Source: Deltaproteobacteria bacterium (lineage in GTDB: Bacteria > Desulfobacterota > DSM-4660 > Desulfatiglandales > HGW-15). From it: a stretch of 42,318 bases of DNA. The position numbers and the translations under genes are program-made. The notes below the pieces were generated by a model. It ran no database searches, was not told the DNA's origin, and saw only the letters and a list, made by a program, of their open reading frames with translations. This document shows, one piece after another, positions 4,901-41,834 of the stretch (the first letter of the stretch is position 1; every line of letters begins with the position of its first letter). The stretch spans positions 1-42,318 of the forward strand of contig JAFGDM010000247.1 of the NCBI GenBank assembly GCA_016932115.1, written 5' to 3'.

Positions 4901-5940
4901 CGAACCTGGACCTTCATCCCTTCTTCCACTTCTCTCTGGCCCGTGACAATCAGCCGATCTCCCGGTTCGAGACCCCTTATGATCTGGACACGGTCTCCTT
5001 CTATAACGCCGATGGTAACGGCTCGGGCATGAGCCACGCCCTCCTTTTCCACAAACACCATACGCTCTCCCCCTTTGTCGATGAGGGCGAAAAGAGGAGC
5101 CGAAAGGGCGTTGGGGATGAGCCTCCGCACAAAAACCACCCGGGCGATCATCCCTGGCCGGATGTCGTGACCCGGGTTAGGCATCAGCACTTTCGCAAGA
5201 AAAGTCTTGGTGGCCGGATCAGCTTTGTAAGCCAAGAAATCAATGGTGCCGACCATTTCGCGGTCAGGAAAGGCATCCACCCTGACCATCGCTCTCTGTC
5301 CCGTTTTCAGGAAACGGACATCCAGCTCCGGCACATTAACATTTACTTTTACTTGATCCACATTGACCATCTCGGCAAGGGGCTTGCCCCGGTCCAAAAA
5401 TTCTCCTTCCTCGACAAAGAGGTGGTTTACCACGCCGCTGATAGGCGCCCTGGTAAATCCCCGGTCATACTCAACACGGGCCTGCCTGAAGTCAGCCTTT
5501 GCAAGTGCCAGTTCAGCCACAACCCTGTCCAGTTCCTCCTGATTGATGATTTCTCTTTCAAAAAGCTTGACCCGCCTCCTGTAAAGGTCATCAGCCAGTT
5601 TCAAAGCAGCCTCGGACCTGTCCAAGGTGGCCTTGAGCGACGCGACGTCGACCCTTGCAATCAAGTCCCCCACCTTAACAAAATCCCCTTCTTTAGGCCC
5701 GACCCAATCGATGCGACCCCCTGTTTCAGCCGCCACGACTACATCCTGCCAGGCTTCCGTCTGTCCGGGAAGTATCAAAATATCTTTTATAGGTGAAGGG
5801 GTAACCTGAACCACTGATACCGGAACCAGCCGAACCTGTTCTTGATTGCTTCCGTGTTGCGTGCTGCTTTCGGAGCGGTCGCAGCCGTTTATCAAGGCAG
5901 CAGCCAGAAAAGCGCCCACGCAGGCCATTAGAGCTTGCAT
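4897..5940 (-). CDS. RND periplasmic adaptor lipoprotein (system A)
   Basis: Membrane-fusion (HlyD/AcrA-like) subunit joining the permease to an outer-membrane channel. The N-terminus is a lipoprotein signal with lipobox LINGC, so it is anchored in the inner membrane through Cys20. The sequence then shows the lipoyl half (GRIDWVGPKEGDFVKVGDLIA), an alpha-hairpin (LDRSEAALKLADDLYRRRVKL), the second lipoyl half (FTRAPISGVVNHLFVEEGEF), a beta-barrel and the membrane-proximal domain (QIIRGLEPGDRLIVTGQREV). Length is 347 residues. The start ATG with GTGGGAA upstream lies inside the end of the cNMP/PilZ gene (13-base overlap), and its stop overlaps the permease start, so the three genes form one operon. 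Confidence 0.92.
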   Translation of the reverse strand: MQALMACVGAFLAAALINGCDRSESSTQHGSNQEQVRLVPVSVVQVTPSPIKDILILPGQTEAWQDVVVAAETGGRIDWVGPKEGDFVKVGDLIARVDVASLKATLDRSEAALKLADDLYRRRVKLFEREIINQEELDRVVAELALAKADFRQARVEYDRGFTRAPISGVVNHLFVEEGEFLDRGKPLAEMVNVDQVKVNVNVPELDVRFLKTGQRAMVRVDAFPDREMVGTIDFLAYKADPATKTFLAKVLMPNPGHDIRPGMIARVVFVRRLIPNALSAPLFALIDKGGERMVFVEKEGVAHARAVTIGVIEGDRVQIIRGLEPGDRLIVTGQREVEEGMKVQVR

Positions 5941-6623
5941 TTAAAATTCCCACTTAGATATTGCTTCAAAACGTCGCTATCTTTCCGGCCCATCTCAACA
6001 AACTTGACGCCCATGCCCGCCGGCTCTTTAGGTGTCGCCTCAGCGGAATTTCTCGACCAAACCACCTCGCAGGATATTCTGAGAGGCTCCGGGAAATCAG
6101 GAAGCTGCAAGCGCAGAAGGAATTGCTCACCTTGAGGAAGCGGTTTTTCGGTTTTGACGAAGAGTCCGCCGGTGCTGATGTTCCCGAGATAAGCCCGAAC
6201 AAAAGACATATTGTCCTTATAGGTAAGAGCCAAAGTCTTTTTAATTCGGACCTCGGATCGTGATGAAAAATCGATCACCCGGTTGACCATCTTCTCAAAT
6301 CGCTTTGCCATAGCCATCAGGATATTTCTGAGATCCGAGGAAAGTTCGTTGAACTCCACATCCAGCGCCGTTCGGTCAACAATGCCGAGGGTAACCTGCC
6401 CCACAGCCGTCGCAGTTGCGGTTCGTTTTGTACCTCCTAGGAAACCAACTTCACCAAATAGCTCTCCCTCCTTGAGAAGATCAATAACATGCTTCTTTCC
6501 ATTAATCATCTTGGAGATCTCCACGGTTCCTGAGAGCACAACATAAAGCCAGTCTCCGGAAGTCCCCTCCTTGATGATGACATAACCATCTTCATGGGTT
6601 TCTTCGGAAGCAAAAGTAAACAT
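5928..6623 (-). CDS. cNMP-binding domain plus PilZ domain protein
   Basis: A 231-residue soluble protein. Residues about 5-95 form a cyclic-nucleotide-binding beta-barrel with phosphate-cassette features GELFGEVGFLGG and KRTAT (conserved Glu and Arg). Residues about 120-228 form a PilZ domain with the c-di-GMP signature RSEVR (122-126) and NISTGG (148-153), then GMGVKFV. Both ligand signatures are intact, so it may sense two second messengers. It has no DNA-binding domain and is therefore not a CRP-type activator. The track start at 6710 is a TTG without a good ribosome site. The ATG at 6623 has AGGAAAATTC before it and starts right at the cNMP domain. It is the first gene of efflux operon A and overlaps the adaptor gene by 13 bases. 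Confidence 0.88.
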   Translation of the reverse strand: MFTFASEETHEDGYVIIKEGTSGDWLYVVLSGTVEISKMINGKKHVIDLLKEGELFGEVGFLGGTKRTATATAVGQVTLGIVDRTALDVEFNELSSDLRNILMAMAKRFEKMVNRVIDFSSRSEVRIKKTLALTYKDNMSFVRAYLGNISTGGLFVKTEKPLPQGEQFLLRLQLPDFPEPLRISCEVVWSRNSAEATPKEPAGMGVKFVEMGRKDSDVLKQYLSGNFKCKL

Positions 6624-25106: not shown

Positions 25107-26294
25107 CTAATCAATGCCTCCCGCTGCCTTTGAGACCGCCCATGCTGCATCCGTGTATTTAAACAGGGTAGAGGTCCTGTACGTGTCATAGGCCAGCCGA
25201 TAGTCATCGATGAGATGCTCGGTAAAGGGAAGATTGCATTTCTCAAAGAACCGTTCCCAACCGATTCTTTCGGCCCAGTCCCCGATTCGCTCATACTTCT
25301 TGGCATCCTTGGCGTAAGCTTCGACAATCTTCTTCACGGATTCACAAACTTCCGGGAAGCGGGGGAAGTTATTGGGCACAGCCGGAACCACCACCTTGGA
25401 GAACCTGGGCGGATGAATTCGATTGGAGACCTTTCCTCCTGCCATGATGGTCACACAATCCCCTTCCTTGTCCGAAAGAGGAACGGCCATACACATGGTG
25501 TAACAGTTCCCGCAGAACATGCAGCGTTCCTCTTTAATCTTAACGGTTTTCTTGCCGTCCTCGGTTTTGGAAGGAGAAATAGCCGCTGTCGGGCAAGCCG
25601 CAATAACCAGCGGAATTTCGCAGAGGGAATCCATGACTTCGTGGTCTATGATGGGTGGTTTTCTGTGATAGCCCAAAAGCGCAATGTCTGAACAATGCAC
25701 CGCGCCGCACATATTCAGGCAGCAAGCCATGGAAATCCGAACCTGGGCCGGGAAGGTCATGCCCCGAAAATACTCGAATAGATCGTCCATAACCGCCTTA
25801 ACCATTGAAGACGCATCGGTCGCAGGGGTGTGGCAATGGAGGTACCCTTGAGTATGTACAATATTGGTCAGCCCTGCACCGGTCCCTCCGATCGGGAACT
25901 TGAAGCTTCCCGATACATGCTTTCGGCTCATGAGGTCTTTTTTTAGCGCCTCCATCTTGTCATGGCTGTCCACGATGAATTCGAGATTGTTTCGGGTGGT
26001 AAAACGCACATAGCCGTTACAGTATTTATCCGCAATTTCACAGATCTCCCGAACATGTTCCACACTCATGAAGCGGCAACCGCCGCATCGCACGGTAAAC
26101 GCTTTGTCTCCCGTCTCGGAGACGTGAACCAAAATTCCAGGTTCAAGGATATCGTGATAAAGCCACTTCCCGTAGTTGTTCTGAATAATAGGTGGAAAAT
26201 ATTGCCAGAAATGCCGGGGACCTAGGTCCGTAAGCCTATTTTCCATCGGTTTACTCGGATTATATAGTCCCAATCTCTCCGTAGATAATGCCAT
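25107..26294 (-). CDS. dsrB: Dissimilatory sulfite reductase, beta subunit
   Basis: Catalytic-type subunit of the alpha2beta2 sulfite reductase, the last enzyme of sulfate respiration, acting in the cytoplasm with DsrC as co-substrate. It shows the siroheme and [4Fe-4S] Cys region ([22 protein letters not shown]) and a ferredoxin insert ([16 protein letters not shown]). [26 protein letters not shown] is strongly conserved in the family. Length 395 residues is normal (about 380). ATG start preceded by CAGGAGGG. It lies 24 bases downstream of dsrA. I see no truncation or missing ligand residue. Confidence 0.98.
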
Positions 26295-26318
26295 AATGTT
26301 AACCCTCCTGTTCTGTGG

Positions 26319-27737
26319 CTATCTCTTGTGTCTTTTTCGGTAATCATCGATTGATCTCGTAAATCCGCCGGGCACGTCTTCCTCTTTCCAGAAGATGTAG
26401 GGGTTGCTTCGCGGTTCTCGCACCATCTGTGGCATAGGTGGAAGTTCCATGATCTCCAAGAACTTCGGCACGCCATACCGCTGAATGAGCTCGCCCAAAC
26501 GCTCTCGGTTTTTGCCCTCTTCCATCCACCAATCCCAGCACTTGTCCACGATTGCTTTCACGTTGTCATAGGGGTGCTCCACTTTCATAAAGGGGATGGT
26601 CAGCAGGGACATCTGCGCCCCTTCCAGGATGGGGGCCTTCGCTCCAAAGAGGATGCTGACGCCCGTATCGGCTCCCGGCCTCAAGGCCCGCGGCATGACA
26701 TTAATACAGTGCATGCAGCGGGTGCATTCCTTGTCATCGATCATGAGTTTTCCATCTTCCATCCACATGCACCGGGTAGGGCAAAGGTCGATGACTTCCT
26801 TCTGGATATCGAATTTGCCCCAGTCTTTTCCGGCATGGGCTCCGGCGTTCGGCGCGATATCCCCCTCGACATAAGCCTTCACGGCGTCTTGGTCGATGCG
26901 AATGTTGTCCCGCCAGGTTCCTATGAAAGACATGTCCGCCCGCGCAATAGAAGCCACACAGCAGTTGGGACAGCCGTCGAATTTGAACTTAAATTTATAG
27001 GGAAAAGCCGGGCGGTGCAACTCGTCCTGATAATAGTGGGTCAGCTCGTAGCACATAGCCTGGGTGTCATAACAGGACCACTCGCACCGAGCCCTGCCTA
27101 TACAGCAGGAAGGGGTACGCAAATTGGAGCCCGAGCCGCCAAGGTCCTGCTGCAGCACATGGCCCAGTTCATAAAAGATGGGCTCTAATTGTTCTGTTGT
27201 AGTACCAAGGAAAATGATGTCACCGGTAGAGCCGTGCAAGTTCATCAAACCGCTGCCCCGGTATTCCCAGAGGTCACAGATGCTTCTCAAATAATCGCTG
27301 CTGTAAAACTTGCTCGCAGGCTGATTTACACGCAGGGTGTGAAAATGGGCAATGGAAGGGTATTCCTCCGGCGAATCCGAATACCGGCCTATGACGCCTC
27401 CCCCGTAACCGAAGACACCCACGATGCCGCCGTGTTTCCAGTGGGTTTCACCATCTTTAAAAGAGCGTTCCAATTGCCCGAGCAAATCTTCGGCAACATC
27501 GCTATTCACCATCAACCGATCACCGGAGAGTTTTTTCCGGTGAAGCGCTTCCCGTTTGGTATCGGCAACAAAGCTAGGCCACGGTCCCTTTTCCAGCTCA
27601 TCGCACATGGGGGTTTTGTGCTTGATTTTGAAGTTTTTGAGCTCTTCTTCCGTGTAGTTTTTGAGCTCTTGATCAGAGTAAATCCTTAGGTCCTGATATT
27701 TAAGTTCCTTCTGTGGTTCTCGTGGTTCGAAAGCCAT
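26319..27737 (-). CDS. dsrA: Dissimilatory sulfite reductase, alpha subunit
   Basis: Alpha subunit of the siroheme sulfite reductase. The family signature ETHWKHGGIVGVFGYGGGV is intact. Cofactor Cys are in CIGRARC (C-x5-C) and CPNCC (C-x3-C), followed by CVASIARADMSFIGTW. A ferredoxin domain lies at CPTRCMW and CTRCMHC. The end (REPRSNPYIFWKEEDVPGGF) is conserved. At 472 residues it is about 35 longer than the usual 437. The extra part is at the N-terminus, a Lys/Glu-rich stretch (YSDQELKNYTEEELKNFK) before the family start at ELEKGPWPSFV. AAGAAGGAGG precedes the ATG, so the extension is probably real. First gene of dsrABD, divergent from dsrN. Confidence 0.98.
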   Translation of the reverse strand: MAFEPREPQKELKYQDLRIYSDQELKNYTEEELKNFKIKHKTPMCDELEKGPWPSFVADTKREALHRKKLSGDRLMVNSDVAEDLLGQLERSFKDGETHWKHGGIVGVFGYGGGVIGRYSDSPEEYPSIAHFHTLRVNQPASKFYSSDYLRSICDLWEYRGSGLMNLHGSTGDIIFLGTTTEQLEPIFYELGHVLQQDLGGSGSNLRTPSCCIGRARCEWSCYDTQAMCYELTHYYQDELHRPAFPYKFKFKFDGCPNCCVASIARADMSFIGTWRDNIRIDQDAVKAYVEGDIAPNAGAHAGKDWGKFDIQKEVIDLCPTRCMWMEDGKLMIDDKECTRCMHCINVMPRALRPGADTGVSILFGAKAPILEGAQMSLLTIPFMKVEHPYDNVKAIVDKCWDWWMEEGKNRERLGELIQRYGVPKFLEIMELPPMPQMVREPRSNPYIFWKEEDVPGGFTRSIDDYRKRHKR

Positions 27738-30357: not shown

Positions 30358-30987
30358 CTATGGTTTGGAGCGTGCCTTGAGTTTCTTTGCAATCAAGATG
30401 TACTTGTCCGTCTGAAGGGTTTCTCCTGTTTCCAGCGTGTCGAATAATCTTCCCGGATACTTGTTTTTGCCGCTGAACAGAAGCTGGTACCCGGCCTTAC
30501 CAAGAACCACCTGGGCAGGGATATGATCGTTCAGCCAGAAGCTCGTGACAATCAGGGCGCCCTCATCAGCCAGAAGTGCCGCCGCTTCCTCGAAGACCTG
30601 CCGCCAGACCCTTGGCCCCTCAGGCGATGTAGTGAGATTTGGGTGTTCAACAATGATTAGATGGAATGAACCCTTCAGATAACGAGTAAGCCCGCGTGCG
30701 TCCGCGGCAATGAAATGTACGAGGCCGGCCATCACCTTTTTGGCTTGAGCAAATGATTCCTCCTTCACGTCCACGCCCACATAGTACGGCACACCCAGAC
30801 CCTGCTTCAAAAGGTAGCCGGTGACCCCTAAATAATTCCATTTGACGTTGTTGCCGCAACCCAGGTTCAGGACCCCGGGGTTCTGAGGGAGGCGAATCCC
30901 GCTCCTGTTGAGATAGTCATCGAGCATCGCCTCCCACCTTCTCTCAGGGGTCCATTGTTCCGAGTCAGGGTTCTTTTCATTCGTCAA
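30358..30987 (-). CDS. Class I SAM-dependent methyltransferase, last gene of the branched-chain operon
   Basis: A 209-residue Rossmann methyltransferase. Motif I is VLNLGCGNNVKWN, followed by VGVDVKEESFAQA (acidic end of strand 2) and HFIAADARGL. The motif IV region is HLIIVEHPNL. The substrate cannot be read from sequence. The start is a TTG, with AAGGGAG six bases upstream overlapping the leuB stop codon, and only three bases separate the two genes, so translation is coupled. It is a stranger among amino acid biosynthesis genes: it may act on a product of that pathway or simply use its transcript. No signal peptide, so cytoplasmic. Confidence 0.8.
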   Translation of the reverse strand: MTNEKNPDSEQWTPERRWEAMLDDYLNRSGIRLPQNPGVLNLGCGNNVKWNYLGVTGYLLKQGLGVPYYVGVDVKEESFAQAKKVMAGLVHFIAADARGLTRYLKGSFHLIIVEHPNLTTSPEGPRVWRQVFEEAAALLADEGALIVTSFWLNDHIPAQVVLGKAGYQLLFSGKNKYPGRLFDTLETGETLQTDKYILIAKKLKARSKP

Positions 30988-30990
30988 ACC

Positions 30991-32052
30991 TCACTCCCTT
31001 ATTCGCCCGGCCACCAGATCCCCGACCTCTTGTGTAGTAAATCCCATTCTACCGGCTTCGAGGCTCTTGAGGTCCTTCTTAAGAACAGCCTTGATGGCTT
31101 TGAGCAAAACCTCCGACGCCTCCTTCTCGCCAATATGGTCAACCATCATCTGGGCTGCGGCGATTGCAGCCATTGGGTTGATTTTGTTGAGACCGGCATA
31201 CTTCGGCGCAGACCCGCCTATAGGCTCGAACATAGAGACTCCCTCGGGGTTGATGTTCGCGCCTGCCGCAATGCCCAAGCCGCCCTGGATGATAGCCCCA
31301 ACATCGGTAATGATGTCCCCAAACATGTTGTTCGTCACAATGACGTCAAAAAACTCAGGATTTTTGATCATCCACATGCAGAGAGCGTCCACATTCTGGT
31401 AGCCGGTTTCAATATCCGGGTAATCAGCACCCACCTCCTGGAATACACGGTACCAGAGGTCCGACTCGTAGACAAGCACGTTGGTCTTGCCGCATAGGGT
31501 CAAGTGCTTTTTCTTGTTCCTGCGCCGGCAAAACTCAAAAGCATATCGAACACAGCGCTCCACGCCTTTCCGCGTGTTCACGGATTCCTGAACGGCAATC
31601 TCATCAGGTGTCCCCTTCTTGAAAAAGGCGCCCCCTCCTGCATACAACCCTTCCGTGTTTTCCCTTACCACCACAAAGTCGATGTGCTCCGGGCCTTTTT
31701 CCCGGAGCGGACTTTGAACCCCGGGGAATAGAACCACCGGCCTCAGGTTGATATACAGATCCAGTTCAAACCTCAGTTTCAGCAACACATCTCTTTCCAG
31801 AATCCCCGGTTTCACATCCGGATGCCCTATGGCACCCAGATAAACGGCATCCATTTCCTTCAGTTCCTTGATCACCCCCGTGGGAAGCAGGATGCCCTCC
31901 TTAAGATAAGCCTCCCCGCCGAGAAGAAATTCCTTGAACCGAAAATCAAGTCCGCAACGCTCGGCCAAAGCCTTCAGCGCCTTGAGGCCTTCCCGCATCA
32001 CCTCGGGTCCGGTTCCATCTCCGGGAATTACGGCGATTCTATAACTATTCAT
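30991..32052 (-). CDS. leuB: 3-isopropylmalate dehydrogenase
   Basis: NAD-dependent oxidative decarboxylation of 3-isopropylmalate in leucine synthesis, and of the methylmalate intermediate in the citramalate route to isoleucine. It starts IAVIPGDGTGPEV and has VVRENTEGLYAGGG, DALCMWMIKNPEFFDVIVTNNMFGDIITDVGA and FEPIGGSAPKYAG, all isocitrate/isopropylmalate dehydrogenase signatures. Length about 353 residues. The track start at 32112 is replaced by the ATG at 32052, which overlaps the ilvC stop (ATGA) and matches the usual N-terminus. It is separated from leuCD by the ilv genes, an uncommon order. Confidence 0.94.
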   Translation of the reverse strand: MNSYRIAVIPGDGTGPEVMREGLKALKALAERCGLDFRFKEFLLGGEAYLKEGILLPTGVIKELKEMDAVYLGAIGHPDVKPGILERDVLLKLRFELDLYINLRPVVLFPGVQSPLREKGPEHIDFVVVRENTEGLYAGGGAFFKKGTPDEIAVQESVNTRKGVERCVRYAFEFCRRRNKKKHLTLCGKTNVLVYESDLWYRVFQEVGADYPDIETGYQNVDALCMWMIKNPEFFDVIVTNNMFGDIITDVGAIIQGGLGIAAGANINPEGVSMFEPIGGSAPKYAGLNKINPMAAIAAAQMMVDHIGEKEASEVLLKAIKAVLKKDLKSLEAGRMGFTTQEVGDLVAGRIRE

Positions 32053-33113
32053 AGACTTATCTTCTCCCTGTTCTCCGGTCTCAAGTTTCTGACCGCAGCC
32101 CCGGCTTTCCACATCTCCGAATTGTGCATATCCGCAAGCTCTTTTTCCAGTTTCTCCCGGTAATCAGGCGCACTGTTCGCCTGCAAAACAATCCGGGTTT
32201 CCTCACCCTTGACGACGCTCTCATAGAGCTCGTCGAACACGGGAGCCACCGCTTTCTTGAATTTACCTTTCCAGTCGAGGGCCCCCCTCTGTGCCGTGGT
32301 GCTGCAGTTCGCATACATCCAGTCCATGCCGTTTTCAGCCACCAGCCTGATCAAGCTCTGAGTCAATTCCTCCACCGTTTCGTTGAAAGCCTCACTGGGG
32401 CTATGGCCATGGCTCCGCAGCAGATCGTACTGGGCTTCCATCACCCCCGCCAGGCATCCCATAAGCACGCCTCTTTCCCCGGTCAGGTCGCTGTGCACTT
32501 CTTTTTCAAAGGTTGTAGGGAAAAGATATCCGGAGCCGATAGCCATTCCGAGAGCGAGAGTTCTCTCCTTCGCCCTTCCAGTGTAATCCTGAAACACCGC
32601 ATAACTGGAATTGATGCCGCTGCCGTCCAGGAAATTGGCCCGCACGGAGCGCCCTGATCCCTTCGGCGCCACCAGGATAACGTCAATGTTGTCAGGAGGA
32701 ATCACCGCGGTCTGCTCCTTGTAGACGATAGAGAATCCATGTGAAAAATAAAGGGCGTCTCCCTCCTTCAGGCACTTTTTGACATCAGGCCAGGCCGCCA
32801 TCTGGCCGGCATCCGACAGGAGATACAGCACCATCGTTGCCCTTTTTGCCGCATCCTCAATCGGGAAAAGGGTTTTTCCCGGCACAAAACCGTCCTGAAT
32901 TGCCTTGTTCCAATAGCGAGGCTCCTCTTCCCGCTGGCCCACTATCACCGGAAAACCATTGTCCCGCAAGTTAAGGGATTGGCCCGGACCTTGGACTCCA
33001 TACCCCAGAACAGCGATTGTCTCATCCTTGAGAATCTCTTTTGCCCTGGATAAGGGGAATTCCTCCGAGGTAATAACCTCCTCCACCACGCCGCCAAAAT
33101 CTATGTTCGCCAT
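32049..33113 (-). CDS. ilvC: Ketol-acid reductoisomerase
   Basis: Second common step of valine and isoleucine synthesis: rearranges and reduces acetolactate or acetohydroxybutyrate, needing Mg and NAD(P)H. It shows the Rossmann motif IAVLGYGVQGPGQ, VAPKGSGRSVR, and the metal-site helices SDLTGERGVLMGCLAGVMEAQYD. Length 354 residues fits the short class I type with a small extension. The cofactor loop after strand 2 reads VGQREEEPRYW, with Glu where NADPH enzymes usually keep Ser or other phosphate contacts. NADH use is possible, but this is inference. ATG start, 15 bases after ilvN, overlaps leuB by four bases. Confidence 0.95.
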   Translation of the reverse strand: MANIDFGGVVEEVITSEEFPLSRAKEILKDETIAVLGYGVQGPGQSLNLRDNGFPVIVGQREEEPRYWNKAIQDGFVPGKTLFPIEDAAKRATMVLYLLSDAGQMAAWPDVKKCLKEGDALYFSHGFSIVYKEQTAVIPPDNIDVILVAPKGSGRSVRANFLDGSGINSSYAVFQDYTGRAKERTLALGMAIGSGYLFPTTFEKEVHSDLTGERGVLMGCLAGVMEAQYDLLRSHGHSPSEAFNETVEELTQSLIRLVAENGMDWMYANCSTTAQRGALDWKGKFKKAVAPVFDELYESVVKGEETRIVLQANSAPDYREKLEKELADMHNSEMWKAGAAVRNLRPENREKISL

Positions 33114-33128
33114 AATCGCTCCTTTCCT

Positions 33129-33635
33129 TCATTTTCGTTCTCTTGCAAGCGCAACTGCGCCCGTTCTTGCAATTTCCTTTATGCCCAGAGGCTTGAGCAG
33201 CTTCAGAAAAGCATTAATTTTCCCTCCGTCTCCCGTCACCTCCAGGGTGTAAAATTCAGTCCCCACGTCCACAACCCTTGACCTGAAAATATCGGCCATC
33301 CTCAAAATCTCGGCTCGGTTCTCCGGCTTTGCCCGAACTTTCACCAATGCGGTTTCCCTCTGGACATAGTCCGTTTCCGTAAAATCCATGACCTTGATCA
33401 CATTGATCAGTTTATTGAGCTGCTTCTTGATCTGCTCCAGAATGTTCATGTCGCCTTCCGCAACCAGGGTGATCCTGGAAACCAGAGGATCGGTCGTTTC
33501 AGAAACACAGAGGCTGTCAATGTTAAATCCCCGGCCGCTAAAAAATCCTGCGACTCTTGAGAGCACCCCGGGCTGATTATCCACCAGCATAGAGAGAATG
33601 TGTCGTCTCGATTCCTGATTATGGTTGTTGTTCAT
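33129..33635 (-). CDS. ilvN: Acetolactate synthase, small regulatory subunit
   Basis: Regulatory partner of IlvB, giving feedback inhibition by valine. An N-terminal ACT domain (HILSMLVDNQPGVLSRVAGFFSGRGFNIDSL) is followed by a linker and the conserved C-terminal domain (LVKVRAKPENRAEILRMADIFRSRVVDVG). Length 168 residues matches the IlvH/IlvN family. The track start at 33782 is not credible. The ATG at 33635 has GGAGGT six bases upstream. It lies 153 bases after ilvB, a larger gap than elsewhere in the operon, and I found no terminator or promoter in it. Confidence 0.95.
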   Translation of the reverse strand: MNNNHNQESRRHILSMLVDNQPGVLSRVAGFFSGRGFNIDSLCVSETTDPLVSRITLVAEGDMNILEQIKKQLNKLINVIKVMDFTETDYVQRETALVKVRAKPENRAEILRMADIFRSRVVDVGTEFYTLEVTGDGGKINAFLKLLKPLGIKEIARTGAVALARERK

Positions 33636-33788
33636 GATGTACCTCCACGACTCGTTGAATCCTCCTTTGTACAAGCAGGCCGGTAAAGCCCGCCCCTGAG
33701 AGCCCATCGGAAAGGCGCACGGTGCAAGTAAAAGATGATAGAGGCAAGAGGGATTCCCGGCCGTGCACCTTGCGCAGCGCACCGCTTT

Positions 33789-35492
33789 TTAGACCAGCAA
33801 CATCTCCGTAATCGGTTTCCCTGACGGGACCATGGGATAGACGCACTCCTCTCTTTCAACCACAAAGTCCATTATGACGGCTTTGGGAGTCGAGAGCCCT
33901 TTTTTGATTGTCTTTTCGACTTCCGCAGGTTTCGTCGCCCTCAATCCAACCGCGCCATAGGCCTCTGCGAGTCTCACAAAATCAGGAGCCTCGATCATTT
34001 GCGTGCACGAGTAGCAACAATCGTAAAAAAGCTGCTGCCATTGGCGGACCATGCCAAGATAGCCGTTGTTGAGGATGACGACCTTGATAGGAAGCTTGTA
34101 CTGCATCACTGTGCCCATTTCTTGGATATTCATCTGGATGCTGCCGTCTCCGGCCACATCCACCACGAGCTTGTCGGGGCATGCAATCTGGGCGCCTATC
34201 GCCGCAGGCAAGCCGAAGCCCATGCACCCCAGACCCCCGGAGGTGATGAAATGATTGGGCTGATCAAAGTGATAATATTGAGCGGCCCACATCTGGTTTT
34301 GACCCACCTCAGTGGCGATGATCGCCTGACCCTTTGTCAGTTCCCAGAGCTTCTCCACCACGAACTGAGGTTTGATAGTATCCCTCTGCTCATAGGCAAG
34401 AGGCTTTGTCGCCTTCCATTGGTCGATCCGGCTTAGCCACGGTGCCCGGATCGTGCCCAAATCACCCAAGTCCTCATCAGCCAAAAGGCGATTCAGCTTC
34501 TCGAGTGTGATTTTGCAATCCCCCACAATAGGGACGGAAACCGAAATGTTTTTCCGAATGGACGTAGGGTCGATATCGATATGAATGATTTGCGCATGGG
34601 GAGCAAAAGCGTCAACCTTTCCGGTGACCCTGTCGTCGAAGCGGACGCCTACGGCAATCATCAAATCACATTCCGAAGAAGAGATGTTGGCGCGATAGGT
34701 CCCGTGCATCCCGATCATGCCGAGCCAGAGGGGATCACCGGCCGGATATGCGCCCAAACCCATTAGAGTAGAAGTCACAGGCGCATGGATCTTCCTGGCG
34801 AATTCAGTGAGTTCCTTGGAAGCTTTCGACAGGATGACGCCGCCTCCTGCGAAAACCAGCGGTTTTCTCGCCTCCTTGATCAACTTTATCACCTTGGGCA
34901 ATTGCTTCACGTTCGGCTCGTAAGTGGGGTTATATGATTTGAGCTGCACCTCTTTGATGGGCGTGTACACGGTTGATCCCTGCATGACATCCTTGGGGAT
35001 GTCCACAAGCACCGGACCGGGTCGACCGGAATGAGCGATATGGAAAGCTTCTTTCAGCATTCTGCCCAAATCTTCAACGCTTTTTACCAGGTAGTTGTGC
35101 TTCGTGCACGGCCTTGTGATCCCCACAATGTCGACCTCCTGGAAGGCGTCATTGCCGATCAGTTGAGTCGGAACCTGACCGGTAAGGACCACCACGGGAA
35201 TAGAATCCATGTAAGCCGAGGCAATGCCTGACACGGTGTTGGTGGCACCCGGTCCGGAAGTTACCAGACAAACCCCCACCTTTCCCGAGGCCCGGGCGTA
35301 TCCATCGGCCGCATGAACAGCAGCCTGTTCATGTCGTGTCATGATGTGACGGAGATCGGATTTGGCCAGTTGATCGTAAATGTCGATGACCGCGCCGCCC
35401 GGATACCCAAAAAGGGTGTCCACTCCTTCTTCCCGTAAAACGTCGATAATGATTTTTGCTCCCTTGGTTTTGATCTTTCTCACCCCTTTCAC
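33789..35492 (-). CDS. ilvB: Acetolactate synthase, large catalytic subunit
   Basis: Thiamine-diphosphate enzyme condensing two pyruvates, or pyruvate plus 2-ketobutyrate, at the start of valine and isoleucine synthesis. It shows the catalytic Glu region (LFGYPGGAVIDIYDQL and MTRHEQAAVHAADGYARA), a FAD-binding middle domain (LMGLGAYPAGDPLWLGMIG), and the TDP/Mg motif (VAGDGSIQMN then ILNNGYLGMVRQWQ). Length 567 residues is normal. The start is a GTG at 35492 with AAAGGG close by, and a second GTG three codons later is an alternative. It lies seven bases after leuD. Forms a complex with IlvN. Confidence 0.95.
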   Translation of the reverse strand: MKGVRKIKTKGAKIIIDVLREEGVDTLFGYPGGAVIDIYDQLAKSDLRHIMTRHEQAAVHAADGYARASGKVGVCLVTSGPGATNTVSGIASAYMDSIPVVVLTGQVPTQLIGNDAFQEVDIVGITRPCTKHNYLVKSVEDLGRMLKEAFHIAHSGRPGPVLVDIPKDVMQGSTVYTPIKEVQLKSYNPTYEPNVKQLPKVIKLIKEARKPLVFAGGGVILSKASKELTEFARKIHAPVTSTLMGLGAYPAGDPLWLGMIGMHGTYRANISSSECDLMIAVGVRFDDRVTGKVDAFAPHAQIIHIDIDPTSIRKNISVSVPIVGDCKITLEKLNRLLADEDLGDLGTIRAPWLSRIDQWKATKPLAYEQRDTIKPQFVVEKLWELTKGQAIIATEVGQNQMWAAQYYHFDQPNHFITSGGLGCMGFGLPAAIGAQIACPDKLVVDVAGDGSIQMNIQEMGTVMQYKLPIKVVILNNGYLGMVRQWQQLFYDCCYSCTQMIEAPDFVRLAEAYGAVGLRATKPAEVEKTIKKGLSTPKAVIMDFVVEREECVYPMVPSGKPITEMLLV

Positions 35493-35499
35493 TTTCCCT

Positions 35500-35994
35500 T
35501 TATAATGAGCCTCTTGCCTTGATATAACTCACGAGGCCGCCGGCTTGAATAATTTCACGCATAAAAACAGGAATGGCTTTCGCAGAAACTCGAACGCCCG
35601 CGTTCGCACCCCTGATTTCACCTGTTTCAAGATCCACCGTCAATGTCTCACCTTCCGAGTAGATGTCAAAAGCTTCGTCGCTCTCCAGGATCGGCAACCC
35701 GATATTGAAAGCGCTCCTGTAAAAGATCCTTGCAAAGCTTTTCGCCACCACCAGGCCGATCCCTGCCGCCTTTATGGCCAGGGGCGCATGCTCCCTCGAG
35801 GAGCCGCAACCGAAATTCTTCCCGGCAACGATGATGTCCCCTTTTCGGACCTCTTTCACAAAATTAGGACTAAGATCCACAAAACAATTCTTTGCCAAGT
35901 CTTCCTTATCCGACACAGTGAGAAATCTTGCAGGGATGATAACATCCGTATCGACATTGTCCCCAAATTTCCAAACCTTTCCTATTAGTTTCAC
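35500..35994 (-). CDS. leuD: 3-isopropylmalate dehydratase, small subunit
   Basis: Swivel-domain subunit of isopropylmalate isomerase, 164 residues. It shows FGDNVDTDVIIPARFL, the conserved GKNFGCGSSREHAPLAIKAAG and SFARIFYRSAFNIGLP. These mark the short LeuD type that pairs with the 420-residue LeuC. With LeuC it isomerises isopropylmalate and also citramalate in the isoleucine route. ATG start 28 bases after leuC, ends seven bases before ilvB. Confidence 0.95.
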   Translation of the reverse strand: MKLIGKVWKFGDNVDTDVIIPARFLTVSDKEDLAKNCFVDLSPNFVKEVRKGDIIVAGKNFGCGSSREHAPLAIKAAGIGLVVAKSFARIFYRSAFNIGLPILESDEAFDIYSEGETLTVDLETGEIRGANAGVRVSAKAIPVFMREIIQAGGLVSYIKARGSL

Positions 35995-36022: not shown

Positions 36023-37288
36023 CTACACATCCTCGGGCGACCCGATCCGTCCCAGTATCGCTGAGGCTGCGGCAATGGCCGGGCTAGCCAAATAGACTTC
36101 GCTTTTTGGATGCCCCATGCGGCCCACAAAATTTCTGTTGGTCGTTGAAAGGGCCTTTTCCCCTTCCGCCAGGATTCCCAGATGCCCGCCCAAACATGGA
36201 CCGCAAGAGGGCGGACCGACCACGGCGCCTGCGTCCAAGAACGTCTCAACGAGTCCTTCCTGGATTGCCTTTTTGAAGATCCACTGGGAACCGGGAAGCA
36301 CAATCAACCTTGTTCCCTTGGCCACTCCTTTCCCTTTCAAAATGGCCGCTACGATCCTTAGGTCATCCAGGCGGCCGTTTGTGCAAGATCCGATGAACAC
36401 CTGATCCAGCGTCACAAGCCCCACCTTCGACACGGGACGCACATTATCAGGGGAATGGGGAAAGGCGACCTGAGGTTCGATTTTTTCGGCGGGGATTTTG
36501 AGAACCCTCTCATAGACCGCACCATCATCGCTCTTGAACATCAAGGGTTCTCTCACGCTTCTTTCGGAGAAATAGTTTACCGTAATGTCGTCAGGTTCCA
36601 CAATCCCGTTCTTCGCCCCGCCTTCCACTGCCATGTTTGTCATGGTGAACCTTTGGTCCATGGGAAGATTTCGGATCGTCTCCCCGCAAAATTCCAGAGA
36701 TTTGTAGTTGGCGCCCTCCACGCCGATCTGACCCAGGGTGAAAAGAATCAGATCTTTTCCGCCTACCCAGGGCATGAGTTTCCCTTGATATTCCACCCGG
36801 ATGGTGGAAGGCACTTTCAGCCATGCCATACCCGTGGCCATCACGGCTCCAAGATCCGTGCTCCCGACCCCGGTGGAAAAAGCTCCCAGGGCACCGTAGG
36901 TGCAGGTATGACTGTCCGCCCCGATCACAAGATCACCAGGGCCGACCAATCCTTTTTCGGGGAGGATCACATGCTCAATTCCACCGTCCCCCATTTCGTA
37001 GTAATGGGCGATCTTGTGCTTGATAGCAAAGTTTTTCATCACCTTTGCCTGCTGCGCGGAAGGGATGTCCTTGTTGGGTACAAAGTGGTCGGCCACTAAA
37101 GCGATCTTCTCCGCATCAAACACCTTTTCGCGGCCGATCTCTTCGAACACCTGAATAGCCAAAGGCGCCGTAATGTCGTTTGCCAGAGCCAAGTCCACTC
37201 TCGCCTTGATCAGCTCCCCCGGTTTTACAGCCTTTAACCCGGCATGGAAAGCCAGTATTTTTTCCGTTATGGTCATGGGATGAGACAT
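36023..37288 (-). CDS. leuC: 3-isopropylmalate dehydratase, large subunit
   Basis: Catalytic [4Fe-4S] subunit, 421 residues, of the short LeuC/homoaconitase type. All three cluster Cys are seen: GSCTNGRLDDL and PSCGPCLGG. Other signatures are VIGADSHTCTYGALGAFSTGVG and VDLALANDITAPLA. This contrasts with the aconitase at 11872, which reads GSS at the first Cys position. ATG start with GGAAAGGAAG upstream. An internal ATG four codons on is an alternative. It lies 67 bases after leuA. Confidence 0.95.
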   Translation of the reverse strand: MSHPMTITEKILAFHAGLKAVKPGELIKARVDLALANDITAPLAIQVFEEIGREKVFDAEKIALVADHFVPNKDIPSAQQAKVMKNFAIKHKIAHYYEMGDGGIEHVILPEKGLVGPGDLVIGADSHTCTYGALGAFSTGVGSTDLGAVMATGMAWLKVPSTIRVEYQGKLMPWVGGKDLILFTLGQIGVEGANYKSLEFCGETIRNLPMDQRFTMTNMAVEGGAKNGIVEPDDITVNYFSERSVREPLMFKSDDGAVYERVLKIPAEKIEPQVAFPHSPDNVRPVSKVGLVTLDQVFIGSCTNGRLDDLRIVAAILKGKGVAKGTRLIVLPGSQWIFKKAIQEGLVETFLDAGAVVGPPSCGPCLGGHLGILAEGEKALSTTNRNFVGRMGHPKSEVYLASPAIAAASAILGRIGSPEDV

Positions 37289-37355: not shown

Positions 37356-38900
37356 TTAAAGCCCTCTTTCCTCCGCGGAAAGGGACGGGTTCCTCTTGAG
37401 ATATTCCAGGCGATTCAGGCCGTTGACATAGGCCTTGGCGCTTGCGATGAAGATGTCGGGATCCGCTCCTTTTCCGAGGGCCACAAATCCGTTTTCCTGC
37501 AGGCGCACCATGACCTCCCCCTGTGCATCCGTTCCTCCGCTGATGGCGTTGATTGAGAACCGAACAAGCCTGGACCTTGTCCCTGTCATTTTGGCTATCG
37601 TGTTGAAGGTCGCGTCAATCGGACCTACGCCGAACCCCGCACCCTGGGAATCCTGACCGTCGATCTTGAGTTTCACCGTTGCCGTCGGTACGGCCACCGT
37701 TCCACTCACCACATTTAAATAATCAAGTTGGTATATGTCAGGCACTCGAAGGATTTCCTCGGCCACGAGCACTTCGATATCTTCATCCAGGATCTCCTTC
37801 CTTTTGTCCGCCAATTCCTTGAAACGGGCAAAGACGCGATCCAAATCCTTTTCTAAAAGATCGTATCCGAGCGATGTAAGCTTCTGTCTGAAGGCATGCC
37901 GTCCTGAGTGCTTTCCCAAAACCAGACGGTTAGTAGAAAGTCCGACGATCTCCGGTTCCATGATTTCGTAGGTCATCCTGTTCTTGAGAACGCCGTCCTG
38001 GTGGATGCCCGCCTCATGGGCAAACGCATTGGCACCCACGATCGCCTTGTTGGGCTGAACGACGATTCCCGTTATCATGCTCACAAGCCTGCTTGCCGGA
38101 TGGATTTCCCTGGTGTTGACACTGGTGGTCAGTCCAAGATGCTCCTTTCGGGTGTAAAGGCCCATCACCACTTCTTCCAATGACGTGTTGCCCGCTCTTT
38201 CTCCAATGCCGTTTATGGTAACCTCCACCTGGCGCGCACCGCCTTTGAGTCCCGCAAGGCTGTTGGCTGTCGCCAGCCCCAGGTCGTTGTGGCAGTGAAC
38301 ACTCAAAACCACCTGCTTCATACCCGGGGTTTTCTCCCGCACATATGCCACGAGCCGCCCGAACTCATCGGGCATGGCGTATCCCACCGTGTCCGGCAGA
38401 TTGACAGTGGTAGCCCCTGCAGAAATAACCGCCCCGAAAACTTTGCAGAGAAAATCGGGATCGCTCCGGGAGCCGTCTTCGGCCGAGAACTCCACGTTAT
38501 CCGTAAGGCTCTTGGCATACTTTACCGCATCCACCGCAGCTTCCACAACCTGGTCGCGTGTCATTTTGAGCTTGTGTTCCAGATGAATGTCCGAGGTCGC
38601 AATAAAAGTGTGAATTCGGGGGTGGGTCGCCCCTTTGACGGAACCCCACGCTTTGTCGATGTCCTCTTTTGACGCCCGGGCAAGGGCGGCTATTTGGCTG
38701 TTCCGGATTCTGCCTGCAACCTCCCTGACGGCATCGAAATCACCCTGCGATGCAGCCGGAAATCCCGCTTCAATCACGTCGACCCCGAGTTTTTCAAGTT
38801 GAATCGCAAGGCGCATTTTTTCAGCCGTATTCATGCTTGCCCCCGGCGACTGCTCGCCGTCTCTCAGGGTCGTATCAAAAATCACAACTTTTTCTGTCAT
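37356..38900 (-). CDS. leuA: 2-isopropylmalate synthase
   Basis: First committed step of leucine synthesis: acetyl-CoA plus 2-ketoisovalerate. It belongs to the DRE-TIM barrel family: [16 protein letters not shown] at the N-terminus, metal His in [36 protein letters not shown], and the LeuA-type KHSGRHAF. The last 120 residues form the leucine-sensing allosteric domain ([25 protein letters not shown]). Length 514 residues is normal. ATG start 11 bases after cimA. Likely feedback-inhibited by leucine as well as controlled by the leader upstream. Confidence 0.95.
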
Positions 38901-38911
38901 GAAATAACCTC

Positions 38912-40486
38912 CTATTTTCCATTCAACACTCTGGAAAGTTTATATTGCACACTATCCACCAGGGCCTGCCAGCTCGCTTCAATCACGTTCTCGGACACAC
39001 CGATGGTCGACCATATTTCACGGGCATCCCTTGATTCAATCTGCACCCGCACCTTCGCAGCCGTACCGTCGCTCCCGTCAATGACTCGGACCTTGAAGTC
39101 TACCAACTTCATTTCCTCCACCTGGGGAAAGAACTTTTGTAGCGCCTTTCGAAGAGCATTATCCATCGCGTTGACCGGACCCTCTCCTTCGGCCGCTGTG
39201 ATCTCGTAATCATCCGCTACGGAGATCTTGATAGTGGCTTGAGAAGAACTCGGGCCTGAGCGGTTTTTTTCAATGGTTATCCGCAGGGATTCGAGGTTGA
39301 AGGGATCTTCAAACTGGCCTGTCACTTTCTTTATGAGGAGTTCCAGAGATCCCTCTGCCGCATCGAACTGGTAGCCCTGATCCTCCAGCCTCTTGATCTC
39401 CTGGACGATTTTCTCGCTGCCCCAGCCTTCGCCTCCCACCTTCACACCCAATTCCCTTGCTTTGTACTCAATGTTGCTCTTGCCTGAAAGGTCTGAGACC
39501 AGCACCCGCCTGCGGTTGCCCACCTTTTCCGGATCGATGTGTTCATAGGCCGCAGGGTTCTTGAGGATGGCGTTCACATGAACCCCCCCCTTGTGTGCAA
39601 AGGCGCTCTTGCCCACAAAAGGGCGCTGATTGATGGGAGGCATGTTGGCCACCTCGCTCACAAAACGGGAGAGCTCGGTCAGTTTCCCGAGTGTTTCTTC
39701 AGGAATACAGCCGTATCCCATCTTGGCCTGTAGAGCGCCGATAACCCCCGTTAGATCGGTATTGCCGCACCGCTCACCATAGCCGTTCACCGTTCCCTGC
39801 ACCATCACGGCGCCGGCTTGGACGGCCTCCAGCGAGTTGGCAAGAGCCAGGCCGCAATCGTTGTGGGCATGAATTCCCAGGGCAGCCGTGACGAAAGGTG
39901 ACACCTTCTCGATAATCTTACGGATCTCATGGGGCAAGGTGCCGCCGTTGGTATCGCAAAGAACAATGAAATCCGCTCCGCCCCCCATTGCAGCCTGCAG
40001 AGTCCTGATCGAATAGTCGGGGTTGCTCTTGTAACCGTCAAAGAAATGCTCCGCGTCGTAAATCACCCGGCGGTCTCGTTTTTTCAAAAAGGAGACGCTG
40101 TCTTCGATCATGGCCAGGTTTTCATCCGTGTCAATACCCAAAATCTCCGTGACATGGAGGACCCAGCTCTTCCCGAAGATCGTTACCGTCTCCGTTTCGG
40201 TTTTCAGGAGAGCCTGGATGTTCAGGTCGATTTCAGGTCGCATATTGGGTCGCCGGGTGCTCCCGAATGCCGTGAGGCGTGCCTTATTGAGCCGGGCGCT
40301 CCGTGCCATCTCGAAGAATCGTTCATCCTTCGGGTTTGACCCGGGCCATCCCCCCTCCACGTAGTGGACCCCGAATTCATCAAGCTTTCCGGCGATCCGG
40401 AGTTTGTCTTCCGCCGAGAAGTTCACCTGCTCGCCCTGTGTTCCGTCACGAAGGGTGGTGTCATAGAGGAGGATTTGCTTTGCCAT
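38912..40486 (-). CDS. cimA: (R)-citramalate synthase
   Basis: Condenses pyruvate and acetyl-CoA to citramalate, which LeuCD and LeuB turn into 2-ketobutyrate, giving isoleucine without threonine. It is a DRE-TIM protein related to Leu[77 protein letters not shown]. The GTQGEQVNF sequence and 524-residue length match the CimA group described in Geobacter-type bacteria rather than LeuA. A C-terminal regulatory domain is present. First structural gene of the operon, starting at an ATG 14 bases after the attenuator U tract, with GGAGAG in that spacer. Confidence 0.93.
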
Positions 40487-40500
40487 AGCTTCTCTCCATC

Positions 40501-40543
40501 AAAAAAAAGAACCGTTATCAGCTCTGGGCTGATAACGGTTCTT
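40501..40543 (-). terminator. Attenuator terminator hairpin before cimA
   Basis: On the minus strand AAGAACCGTTATCAGC (40528-40543), loop CCAGA, GCTGATAACGGTTCTT (40507-40522), then U residues to 40501. A perfect 16-bp stem with a U tract: a textbook intrinsic terminator, placed between a leader peptide and the first structural gene of its own operon. Confidence 0.95.
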
Positions 40544-40654
40544 CGCGGATCTTTTTGCTGCTACGTCATTACCAGGCCCCGGGGTCCAAGGTCGACGACC
40601 TCGACAGGAAGAAGCAGTAGGGATAGGAGAAACCCTACTGCGCCGATAATGACG
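40529..40654 (-). promoter_or_regulatory. Attenuator alternative pairings (segments 1, 2 and 3)
   Basis: Segment 1 CGTCATTATCGG (40643-40654) can pair with segment 2 CTGGTAATGACG (40564-40575) over 12 bp with two G-U pairs (protector). Segment 2 can instead pair through CTGGTAATG with CGTTATCAG (40529-40537) in the 5' arm of the terminator: 9 bp, two G-U pairs (antiterminator). Segment 1 covers Ile/Val codons 10-13 of the leader, and segment 2 is its last four sense codons. A ribosome stalled at the Ile/Val codons would cover segment 1 and free segment 2 to block the terminator. A ribosome reaching the stop would cover segment 2 and allow termination. Confidence 0.85.
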
Positions 40655-40680
40655 ATAATGTCGTTCCCGAAATTCATCAT
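40561..40680 (-). CDS. Branched-chain amino acid operon leader peptide
   Basis: A 39-codon ORF not in the supplied track: MMNFGNDIIVIIGAVGFLLS, then LLLLPVEVVDLGPRGLVMT and TAG. Eighteen of 39 residues are Ile, Val or Leu (4 Ile, 6 Val, 8 Leu), with runs IIVII and LLLL. AGGAAG lies 11 bases before the first ATG (14 before the second). It sits between a strong promoter and the terminator hairpin, directly before cimA. The peptide probably has no function once made. Its translation would measure charged Ile, Val and Leu tRNA, as in enterobacterial ilv and leu leaders. Confidence 0.92.
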   Translation of the reverse strand: MMNFGNDIIVIIGAVGFLLSLLLLPVEVVDLGPRGLVMT

Positions 40681-40714
40681 GCTAAAAAATGCTTCCTAGA
40701 ACTTATTTAGGCTG

Positions 40715-40743
40715 ACAGTAGACCCGTTCTTTCCCCATGTCAA
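40715..40743 (-). promoter_or_regulatory. Promoter of the branched-chain amino acid operon
   Basis: On the minus strand a perfect TTGACA (40738-40743), 17-base spacer and TACTGT (40715-40720). Transcription would begin near 40708, about 28 bases before the leader peptide start. No other promoter is apparent for the nine genes downstream. Confidence 0.85.
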
Positions 40744-40800
40744 GCTTTATTTTAGGTCCCGACAAAAGAAGGCAAAAACCGGCACTAAAACAAAAAATGC

Positions 40801-41466
40801 TCAGGGTTCAAATACACACAGTCCTCTGATGCTTCCCGCACCGAACTGCTCCATGGTTTCAGCCGCAACCGTCAATCCTTCTTTAAGATAGACCGCATCG
40901 ATCCCGGGCACCGCATAGGTATAAAAAAGTACATTGGCCGAGTCGTCTTTCACCCTGGTTTTTTCATCCGCGCCCTGGCACAAAATACAGATGATGTCCT
41001 TTTCATCCCGGAGAACGATCTCTCTCTCTTTGGTCGTGAACCGACGGCCTCCCATTCCTTCGCCCGTCTCTCCCTCCCGCGCTATGTCCAGGGTTAACCG
41101 GCCCTCGATCCGATCGTAATCCGTAACAGCCACCAGAATTCCCGCACACATCTCGGCCATGAAGTGGGCGTCCACCGGAAGGTTGTACCGAGGGAATCCG
41201 CTGTTCACCGTTCTCTTCAAATGCTTCGACAGGGGACACTCAAAGCCGAAGCTTTGAAAAAACTCGTCGTACCTATTGATTCGCTGCGTTATTTCAGCAA
41301 GTGTATCCCGCTTTCGCATTTTTCGCAGGAGCTTTCTTTTGTATTGGTCATACCCATGCTGAGCGGCCATGGCTTTGCAGCCGGTGATGAGTGTCAGCCC
41401 GAAAGCCACACCCGGGTACCTGGCCTGATAGGCGGCTGAAATCGAGAAGTCTATCCACGAACCCAC
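40801..41466 (-). CDS. B3/B4 (PheT-type tRNA-binding) domain protein
   Basis: A stand-alone protein with the B3/4 domain found in the beta chain of phenylalanyl-tRNA synthetase, where it edits mischarged tRNA. Features are NSGFPRYNLPVDAHFMAEMCAGILVAVTDYDRIEG, RDEKDIICILCQGADEKTRVKD and the end FYTYAVPGIDAVYLKEGL. Stand-alone members probably bind tRNA or amino acids, but their role is not settled. The track start at 41514 is a TTG. The GTG at 41466 has GGAG eight bases upstream and fits the family start (221 residues). It lies 58 bases upstream of the branched-chain promoter and reads in the same direction, beginning just after the truncated integrase. Confidence 0.75.
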   Translation of the reverse strand: MGSWIDFSISAAYQARYPGVAFGLTLITGCKAMAAQHGYDQYKRKLLRKMRKRDTLAEITQRINRYDEFFQSFGFECPLSKHLKRTVNSGFPRYNLPVDAHFMAEMCAGILVAVTDYDRIEGRLTLDIAREGETGEGMGGRRFTTKEREIVLRDEKDIICILCQGADEKTRVKDDSANVLFYTYAVPGIDAVYLKEGLTVAAETMEQFGAGSIRGLCVFEP

Positions 41467-41480
41467 GACGTTATCTCCTT

Positions 41481-41834
41481 TCACGACATTCCCTTCTCGC
41501 AATCCTTGCCACAATATCTCCCATAGTTCGCGAGGTGGCTGAGTAATCCCTCAACCTCCTTCTTACCCATGTCTTTGGAATGAGTTTTCCCCCCGTAAAA
41601 TTCCACGAATTGGAGAATCCGGTCGCAATATGTTTGTTCCGTCCGATATGCATAGCGGCAGAATCTCAGCACGTGCTTCACCTGGTCCATCAGATGTAAG
41701 CTGCTGTCAGGCCTAAATTTTGGCTTGTTTTCCATACCATCAGTTTGTAAAATAAAAAACTGGAAAATTGCACTATCCTTTTCCGCATTTATAGATTCTA
41801 AATTTAATGCGAGAATATTTGGATTTTTTACCAT
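41481..41834 (-). pseudogene. Truncated integron/phage-type tyrosine recombinase, N-terminal part
   Basis: Residues about 45-102 match the N-terminal core-binding (SAM-like) domain of integron and XerC-type integrases: MDQVKHVLRFCRYAYRTEQTY, RILQFVEFYGGKTHSKDMG, EEVEGFLSHLA-like KKEVEGLLSHLA. After HLA the expected sequence stops and is replaced by NYGRYCGKDCEKGMS and a stop. The whole catalytic domain with the R-H-R-Y residues is missing, and no other frame downstream restores it. The B3/4 gene starts within 20 bases. The likely original start is the ATG at 41735, since the first 33 residues do not look like the family. A remnant of a mobile element, not an active enzyme. Confidence 0.75.

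Follow-up and report, generated by a model that had tools for sequence, protein, structure and literature searches.

A predicted ribosome-mediated attenuator preceding a citramalate-led branched-chain amino acid operon in a deltaproteobacterium, and related leaders across its phylum

The operon and its leader

The minus strand of the window (the entire stretch of 42,318 nt that was analyzed) carries a branched-chain amino acid operon led by cimA, and the region between cimA and the preceding gene raises the question of whether, and by what mechanism, the operon is regulated through its own leader. The initial annotation read this region as a ribosome-stalling attenuator. Comparative sequence analysis and folding models indicate that the leader very probably controls the cimA-leuACD-ilvBNC-leuB operon by ribosome-mediated transcription attenuation. 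Genes of the operon were named with NCBIfam models:

38912-40486, minus strand: cimA, citramalate synthase, first gene of the operon (TIGR00977, 741 bits versus a cut-off of 450)
37356-38900, minus strand: leuA, 2-isopropylmalate synthase (TIGR00973, 724 bits)
36023-37288, minus strand: leuC (TIGR02083, above cut-off)
35500-35994, minus strand: leuD (TIGR02087, above cut-off)
33789-35492, minus strand: ilvB (TIGR00118, above cut-off)
33129-33782, minus strand: ilvN (TIGR00119, above cut-off)
32049-33113, minus strand: ilvC (TIGR00465, above cut-off)
30991-32112, minus strand: leuB-type isopropylmalate dehydrogenase (NF002898, above cut-off)
30358-30987, minus strand: methyltransferase-like ORF, last in the operon (weak Methyltransf_25 match; starts 3 bases past leuB)

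The first GTG of leuB overlaps ilvC, and the true start is probably further in. The operon had been described as having nine genes; eight are branched-chain genes and the ninth is the methyltransferase-like ORF, for which no family scored above its cut-off. The operon thus holds the genes for the amino acids that the leader would sense, as expected of an attenuator. The ilvD gene of the genome sits on another contig, and no second copy of the attenuator was found in the source genome. As no threonine deaminase of the TIGR01127 family passes its cut-off in the genome, this organism probably makes isoleucine via citramalate. The label of sulfate reducer is backed by dsrA (26355-27602) in the same window, where positions 25224 to 27602 hold dsrA and an adjacent sulfite-reductase-like gene. 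An ORF two genes upstream of cimA (41481-41834) has a phage-integrase N-terminal SAM-like domain.

The leader elements, in order of transcription, are as follows:

40743-40501, minus strand: predicted attenuator leader, between a B3/4-domain gene (40801-41514) and cimA
40738-40743, minus strand: perfect -35 box, TTGACA (sequence; TTGAC recurrence in relatives)
40715-40720, minus strand: putative, weak -10 box, TACTGT (sequence; 3 of 6 consensus bases, spacing 17 nt)
40561-40680, minus strand: leader peptide ORF of 39 codons, 18 of them Ile, Val or Leu (translation; homologous ORFs in 44 aligned relatives)
40643-40654, minus strand: segment 1, CGUCAUUAUCGG, with Val-Ile-Ile control codons (12 bp with segment 2)
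40614-40641, minus strand: hairpin P, GCAGUAGGG...CCCUACUGC, in the loop of helix 1:2, with Leu codons on its 3' arm (alignment; RNAalifold)
40564-40576, minus strand: segment 2, CCUGGUAAUGACG, final leader codons, partner of segment 1 or 3 (pairing counts; stop position)
40527-40540, minus strand: segment 3, AACCGUUAUCAGCC, terminator 5' arm, also able to pair with segment 2 (2:3 pairing over 45 leaders)
40510-40522, minus strand: segment 4, GCUGAUAACGGUU, 3' arm of the terminator (3:4 pairing over 45 leaders)
40501-40508, minus strand: U tract (T8) of the intrinsic terminator (sequence; terminator scan)

The promoter had been described as near consensus. This holds for the -35 box but not for the -10 box, and a simple promoter scanner called no promoter at the TTGACA/TACTGT pair of the window. 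What makes the -35 box credible is the presence of TTGAC ahead of the leader ORF in 44 of the 45 leaders compared, against 5.0 expected from shuffles; it lies mostly 56 to 81 nt from the leader start codon, and many relatives carry TAnnnT about 17 nt after it.

Translation of positions 40680 to 40561 gives MMNFGNDIIVIIGAVGFLLSLLLLPVEVVDLGPRGLVMT, followed by a UAG stop, and agrees with the annotated 39-residue peptide with 18 Ile, Val and Leu residues. The Shine-Dalgarno sequence of this ORF is weak. Folding likewise reproduced the annotated RNA elements. The terminator described earlier as having 16 bp (40544-40506) has 17 pairs, 16 of them Watson-Crick, with a 5-nt loop, a folding energy of -26.4 kcal/mol (z -6.8) and eight U residues in its tract, which ends 14 nt before the cimA ATG. 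Helix 1:2, between segment 1 (40654-40643) and segment 2, has 12 bp, and the competing helix 2:3 has 9 bp (40575-40567 with 40537-40529). The Ile and Val codons lie in segment 1 and segment 2 abuts the UAG stop, as annotated. The whole 210-nt leader has a fold z of -6.2, and none of 200 shuffles folded equally well. Each computable defining property of ribosome-mediated attenuators of the trp/ilv type was found, namely, an ORF with control codons, mutually exclusive helices 1:2, 2:3 and 3:4, a terminator before the first gene, and the placement of the stop codon.

Conservation and covariation in 45 leaders

Upstream regions of cimA were drawn from relatives, most with 66 to 78% protein identity, and 45 leaders (that of the window and 44 relatives) were aligned from sequence alone. 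The leaders of the relatives are clearly homologous, with the pattern NIIVIISATGI..SLLLLL..PGLIMT, and the leader ORF is kept in all 44, with Ile, Leu and Val making up 47% of residues overall. In the structure comprising helix 1:2, hairpin P and helix 3:4, 95.6% of cells are paired, compared with 27 to 53% when partners were slid by 1 to 3 columns, and 12 pairs have changes on both sides. None of 500 shuffles matched any pairing measure; this control is inflated by sequence relatedness, which the slid control preserves.

The individual helices follow the same pattern. Helix 1:2 is 89% paired, with compensation from GUC/GAC to GCC/GGC (L021) or CUC/GAG (L011). Helix 3:4 is 99.6% paired, with double changes in four pairs. 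The alternative helix 2:3 is 94.2% paired (slid controls, 17 to 43%), although two leaders of the 45 (L034 and L128) have a broken segment 2 in the alignment and no 2:3 in the folding model. Hairpin P is absent from the earlier description and is the most strongly conserved element within the leader ORF (97.8% of cells paired, both-side changes in 5 of 10 pairs); among the helices, it and the terminator are conserved best, and RNAalifold predicted both unprompted. The comparison proposed with the initial annotation therefore gave strong conservation of both the leader ORF and the pairing, which also covaries, and this rules out a chance ORF beside a terminator.

Structured RNA ahead of amino acid genes could also act as a T-box or a ligand-binding riboswitch, with direct sensing of uncharged tRNA or a metabolite and an incidental ORF, and T-boxes do serve amino acid genes in Firmicutes (PMC2965389). 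However, Rfam release 15 gave no match in the window at the gathering score and none at an E value of ≤0.05 in 16 related loci, and no T-box or amino acid leader model was among the Rfam matches up to an E value of 10 at 40470 to 40760. In addition, the ORF is conserved in frame, and its stop codon lies 1 to 7 nt past the end of segment 2 in 43 of 45 leaders. A T-box, riboswitch or known Rfam leader was consequently rejected for lack of a match and is extremely improbable here.

The peptide is highly hydrophobic and alike throughout the order of the window, as would be expected if the ORF encoded a conserved small membrane protein and the hairpin were an ordinary terminator, with no attenuation. 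Conservation at third codon positions, however, tracks RNA pairing (0.905 at paired versus 0.579 at unpaired positions; P = 5e-6), indicating constraint on the RNA and not on the peptide alone. All 44 sequences with Ile at the central codon of segment 1 encode it as AUU, whereas unpaired Ile codons near segment 1 occur in all three forms. Furthermore, segment 2 pairs with segment 3, which lies outside the ORF, and the more distant leaders, short and unlike membrane peptides (e.g., MTRNTGIIIGRGIIIRPVT and MAALLREGIIRPPT), still retain the Ile codons, the terminator and the position before cimA. The third-position test and these short leaders led to rejection of a membrane microprotein, which is very unlikely.

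Simulated switching and the predicted mechanism

Switching was simulated by folding the transcript, truncated where segment 4 begins, while a 30-nt ribosome footprint was moved codon by codon, an equilibrium calculation that leaves kinetics aside. In the leader of the window, the probability of the antiterminator, P(2:3), was 0.92 to 0.94 with the A site at codons 6 to 19 and 0.00 from codon 33 to the stop. Across the 45 leaders, the antiterminator averaged 0.86 to 0.93 during a stall at the segment 1 Ile codon, and P(2:3) was 0.0002 with the ribosome at the stop codon. The annotated ribosome-stalling switch was thus reproduced in silico. A stall in the Leu run gave a P(2:3) of 0.52 with helix 1:2 allowed to form across the ribosome and 0.93 with this disallowed (45 leaders); because this result hinges on the formation of 1:2 around the ribosome, sensing of Leu is less certain than that of Ile. 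The suggestion that one switch could control Ile, Val and Leu synthesis together is softened to this extent: the Leu codons may act more weakly than the Ile codons.

The predicted mechanism is as follows. Transcription would start near 40708, and a ribosome would then translate the leader ORF. With ample charged tRNA, this ribosome would reach the stop codon and cover segment 2, allowing the 3:4 terminator to form and polymerase to stop near 40501. A limiting supply of Ile or Val, and probably of Leu, would stall the ribosome on the segment 1 codons or the subsequent Leu run, leaving segment 2 free to pair with segment 3, so that no terminator would form and cimA and the later genes would be transcribed. 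Helix 1:2, strengthened by hairpin P, may favor termination when no ribosome is present, and P is perhaps also a polymerase pause hairpin. Blocking P in silico in a trimmed leader lowered P(1:2) modestly, from 0.18 to 0.07. With the ribosome left out of the equilibrium model, 2:3 is preferred to 1:2 in many relatives (mean, 0.54 versus 0.37), and termination in the absence of translation is therefore not guaranteed.

Segment 2 is freed in the model by stalling anywhere from codon 6 to codon 19, and not solely at Ile, Val or Leu codons, as would hold for a general monitor of translation slowed by any cause. Ile, Leu and Val nevertheless prevail in the control region, in proportions that vary with the downstream gene. 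In leaders of other families that precede cimA only, Ile constitutes 83% of Ile, Leu and Val, compared with 47% in the mixed leaders of ilvD and ilvB (0.83 versus 0.47; P = 4e-5, uncorrected for relatedness). In the order of the window, where cimA heads a joint set of leu and ilv genes, leaders are Leu rich (30% Ile, 49% Leu and 21% Val in 13 leaders sampled). ORF starts were picked with a preference for Ile, Leu and Val, which sways totals more than shares. The codon mix, as read from sequence, matches the prediction of amino-acid-specific sensing, and a nonspecific monitor is scarcely probable beside an attenuator that responds to branched-chain amino acids.

Spread of the element and relation to known attenuators

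A covariance model of the element (R1) matched 64 of 74 genomes and 42 of 45 genera in the order of the window, and 46 of 395 genomes in an even draw of the phylum. The latter is likely an undercount, because the model was tuned to one order and the filters were strict. Among 16 control genomes of other phyla, two gave weak R1 matches of 34 to 37 bits, and very weak matches were consequently not trusted. Doublets of plus- and minus-strand matches at one site represent the terminator read from the opposite strand. Because the covariance model contains no gene information, the downstream gene is independent evidence: 31 of 34 matches examined outside the order precede cimA (14), ilvD (13) or ilvB (4). 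Of the other three, one is at a contig end and two (L182 and L188) are apparently false, with no branched-chain gene.

Within the order, copies also precede leuA (G016, G009, G024, G002, G014, G021 and G452) and ilvB (G005, G037, G021, G444 and G446). By eye, hairpins resembling P can be made out in a number of ilvD leaders from other families (e.g., L194, L196 and L199). Five genomes of the order carry copies before an acyl-CoA dehydrogenase gene (L202, at 4840-5004 in G024:C70; L230; L231; L247; and L248), which is followed by ETF subunit genes in L202 and L231, where these were read. These unexpected copies point to a role in branched-chain metabolism. In another genome (L229, G044:C13), two copies about 600 nt apart (5263-5430 and 6033-6200) precede genes for two subunits, one POR_N/PFOR_II and one TPP-binding, of a 2-oxoacid:ferredoxin oxidoreductase.

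Classical trp-type ilv and leu attenuators combine a leader peptide, mutually exclusive helices and an intrinsic terminator. The leader of the window resembles those of ilvGMEDA, ilvBN and leuABCD in Escherichia coli and Salmonella in its Ile/Val/Leu-rich leader peptide, exclusive helices and intrinsic terminator. Control by charged tRNA, a feature of these enterobacterial attenuators (PMC1183508), is likewise predicted for the window leader. It differs from them in that cimA leads the operon, the Ile codons themselves make up segment 1, helix 1:2 encloses hairpin P, and no Rfam leader matches the element.

The view that ilv and leu attenuators are known mainly from enterobacteria understates their occurrence elsewhere: examples come from Corynebacterium and Staphylococcus, with candidate ilvB-OMG and Leptospira motifs in addition (PMC10272879, PMC5794164). 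The ilvB-II motif of Corynebacterium ilvBNC shares with the window leader a conserved upstream ORF (uORF) rich in branched-chain residues, a terminator, alternative pairing and control of ilv genes (PMC10272879). Its uORF encodes 15 to 17 residues and is reported once per genome, before ilvB, in one genus (PMC10272879), whereas the family of the window precedes cimA, leuA, ilvD, ilvB and other genes throughout the phylum. In other phyla, the ilvB-OMG and Leptospira ilvB motifs are candidates for uORF-based attenuation of branched-chain genes (PMC10272879); the window element and the related loci had no Rfam 15 match at the thresholds used, a comparison that covers these two motifs only so far as Rfam 15 includes them. 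The Staphylococcus aureus ilvD-leu attenuator, for which genetic evidence was reported, also has a Leu/Ile-rich leader peptide and a terminator and precedes ilvD (PMC5794164). The antiterminator proposed for S. aureus would pair with the U tail, leaving the terminator stem intact (PMC5794164), whereas segment 2 here would capture the 5' arm of the terminator.

The initial annotation knew of no attenuator before cimA in a sulfate reducer. In agreement, none before cimA, or in this phylum or the deltaproteobacteria, was found in the open-access literature, and an earlier prediction elsewhere is possible; a study of deltaproteobacterial regulation (PMC545781) does not mention an ilv attenuator. 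With the modeled behavior of a classical attenuator, no Rfam match and no description in that literature, this is best regarded as a phylum-wide RNA family that is new but of the textbook attenuation kind, with no new mechanism. It may represent an ancestral attenuator family of the phylum with sequence-locked Ile codons, segment 2 and terminator stem (AUUAUCAG - CUGAUAAU - GUUAUCAG - CUGAUAAC), a scenario to which we assign somewhat better than even chances. As a module, the family would then have reached cimA, leuA, ilvD, ilvB, the 2-oxoacid:ferredoxin oxidoreductase and the acyl-CoA dehydrogenase-Etf cluster, retuning its mix of Ile, Leu and Val for each target.

Classical branched-chain attenuation would thereby extend, with evidence from covariation, to the phylum of sulfate reducers and their relatives, where it would precede the citramalate route. 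The leaders form a natural series, from Ile only (cimA) to mixed (ilv and leu), which makes the relationship between codon content and the amino acid sensed testable. Copies before the acyl-CoA dehydrogenase-Etf cluster and the ferredoxin-dependent oxidoreductase would flag genes of a branched-chain metabolism not yet described.
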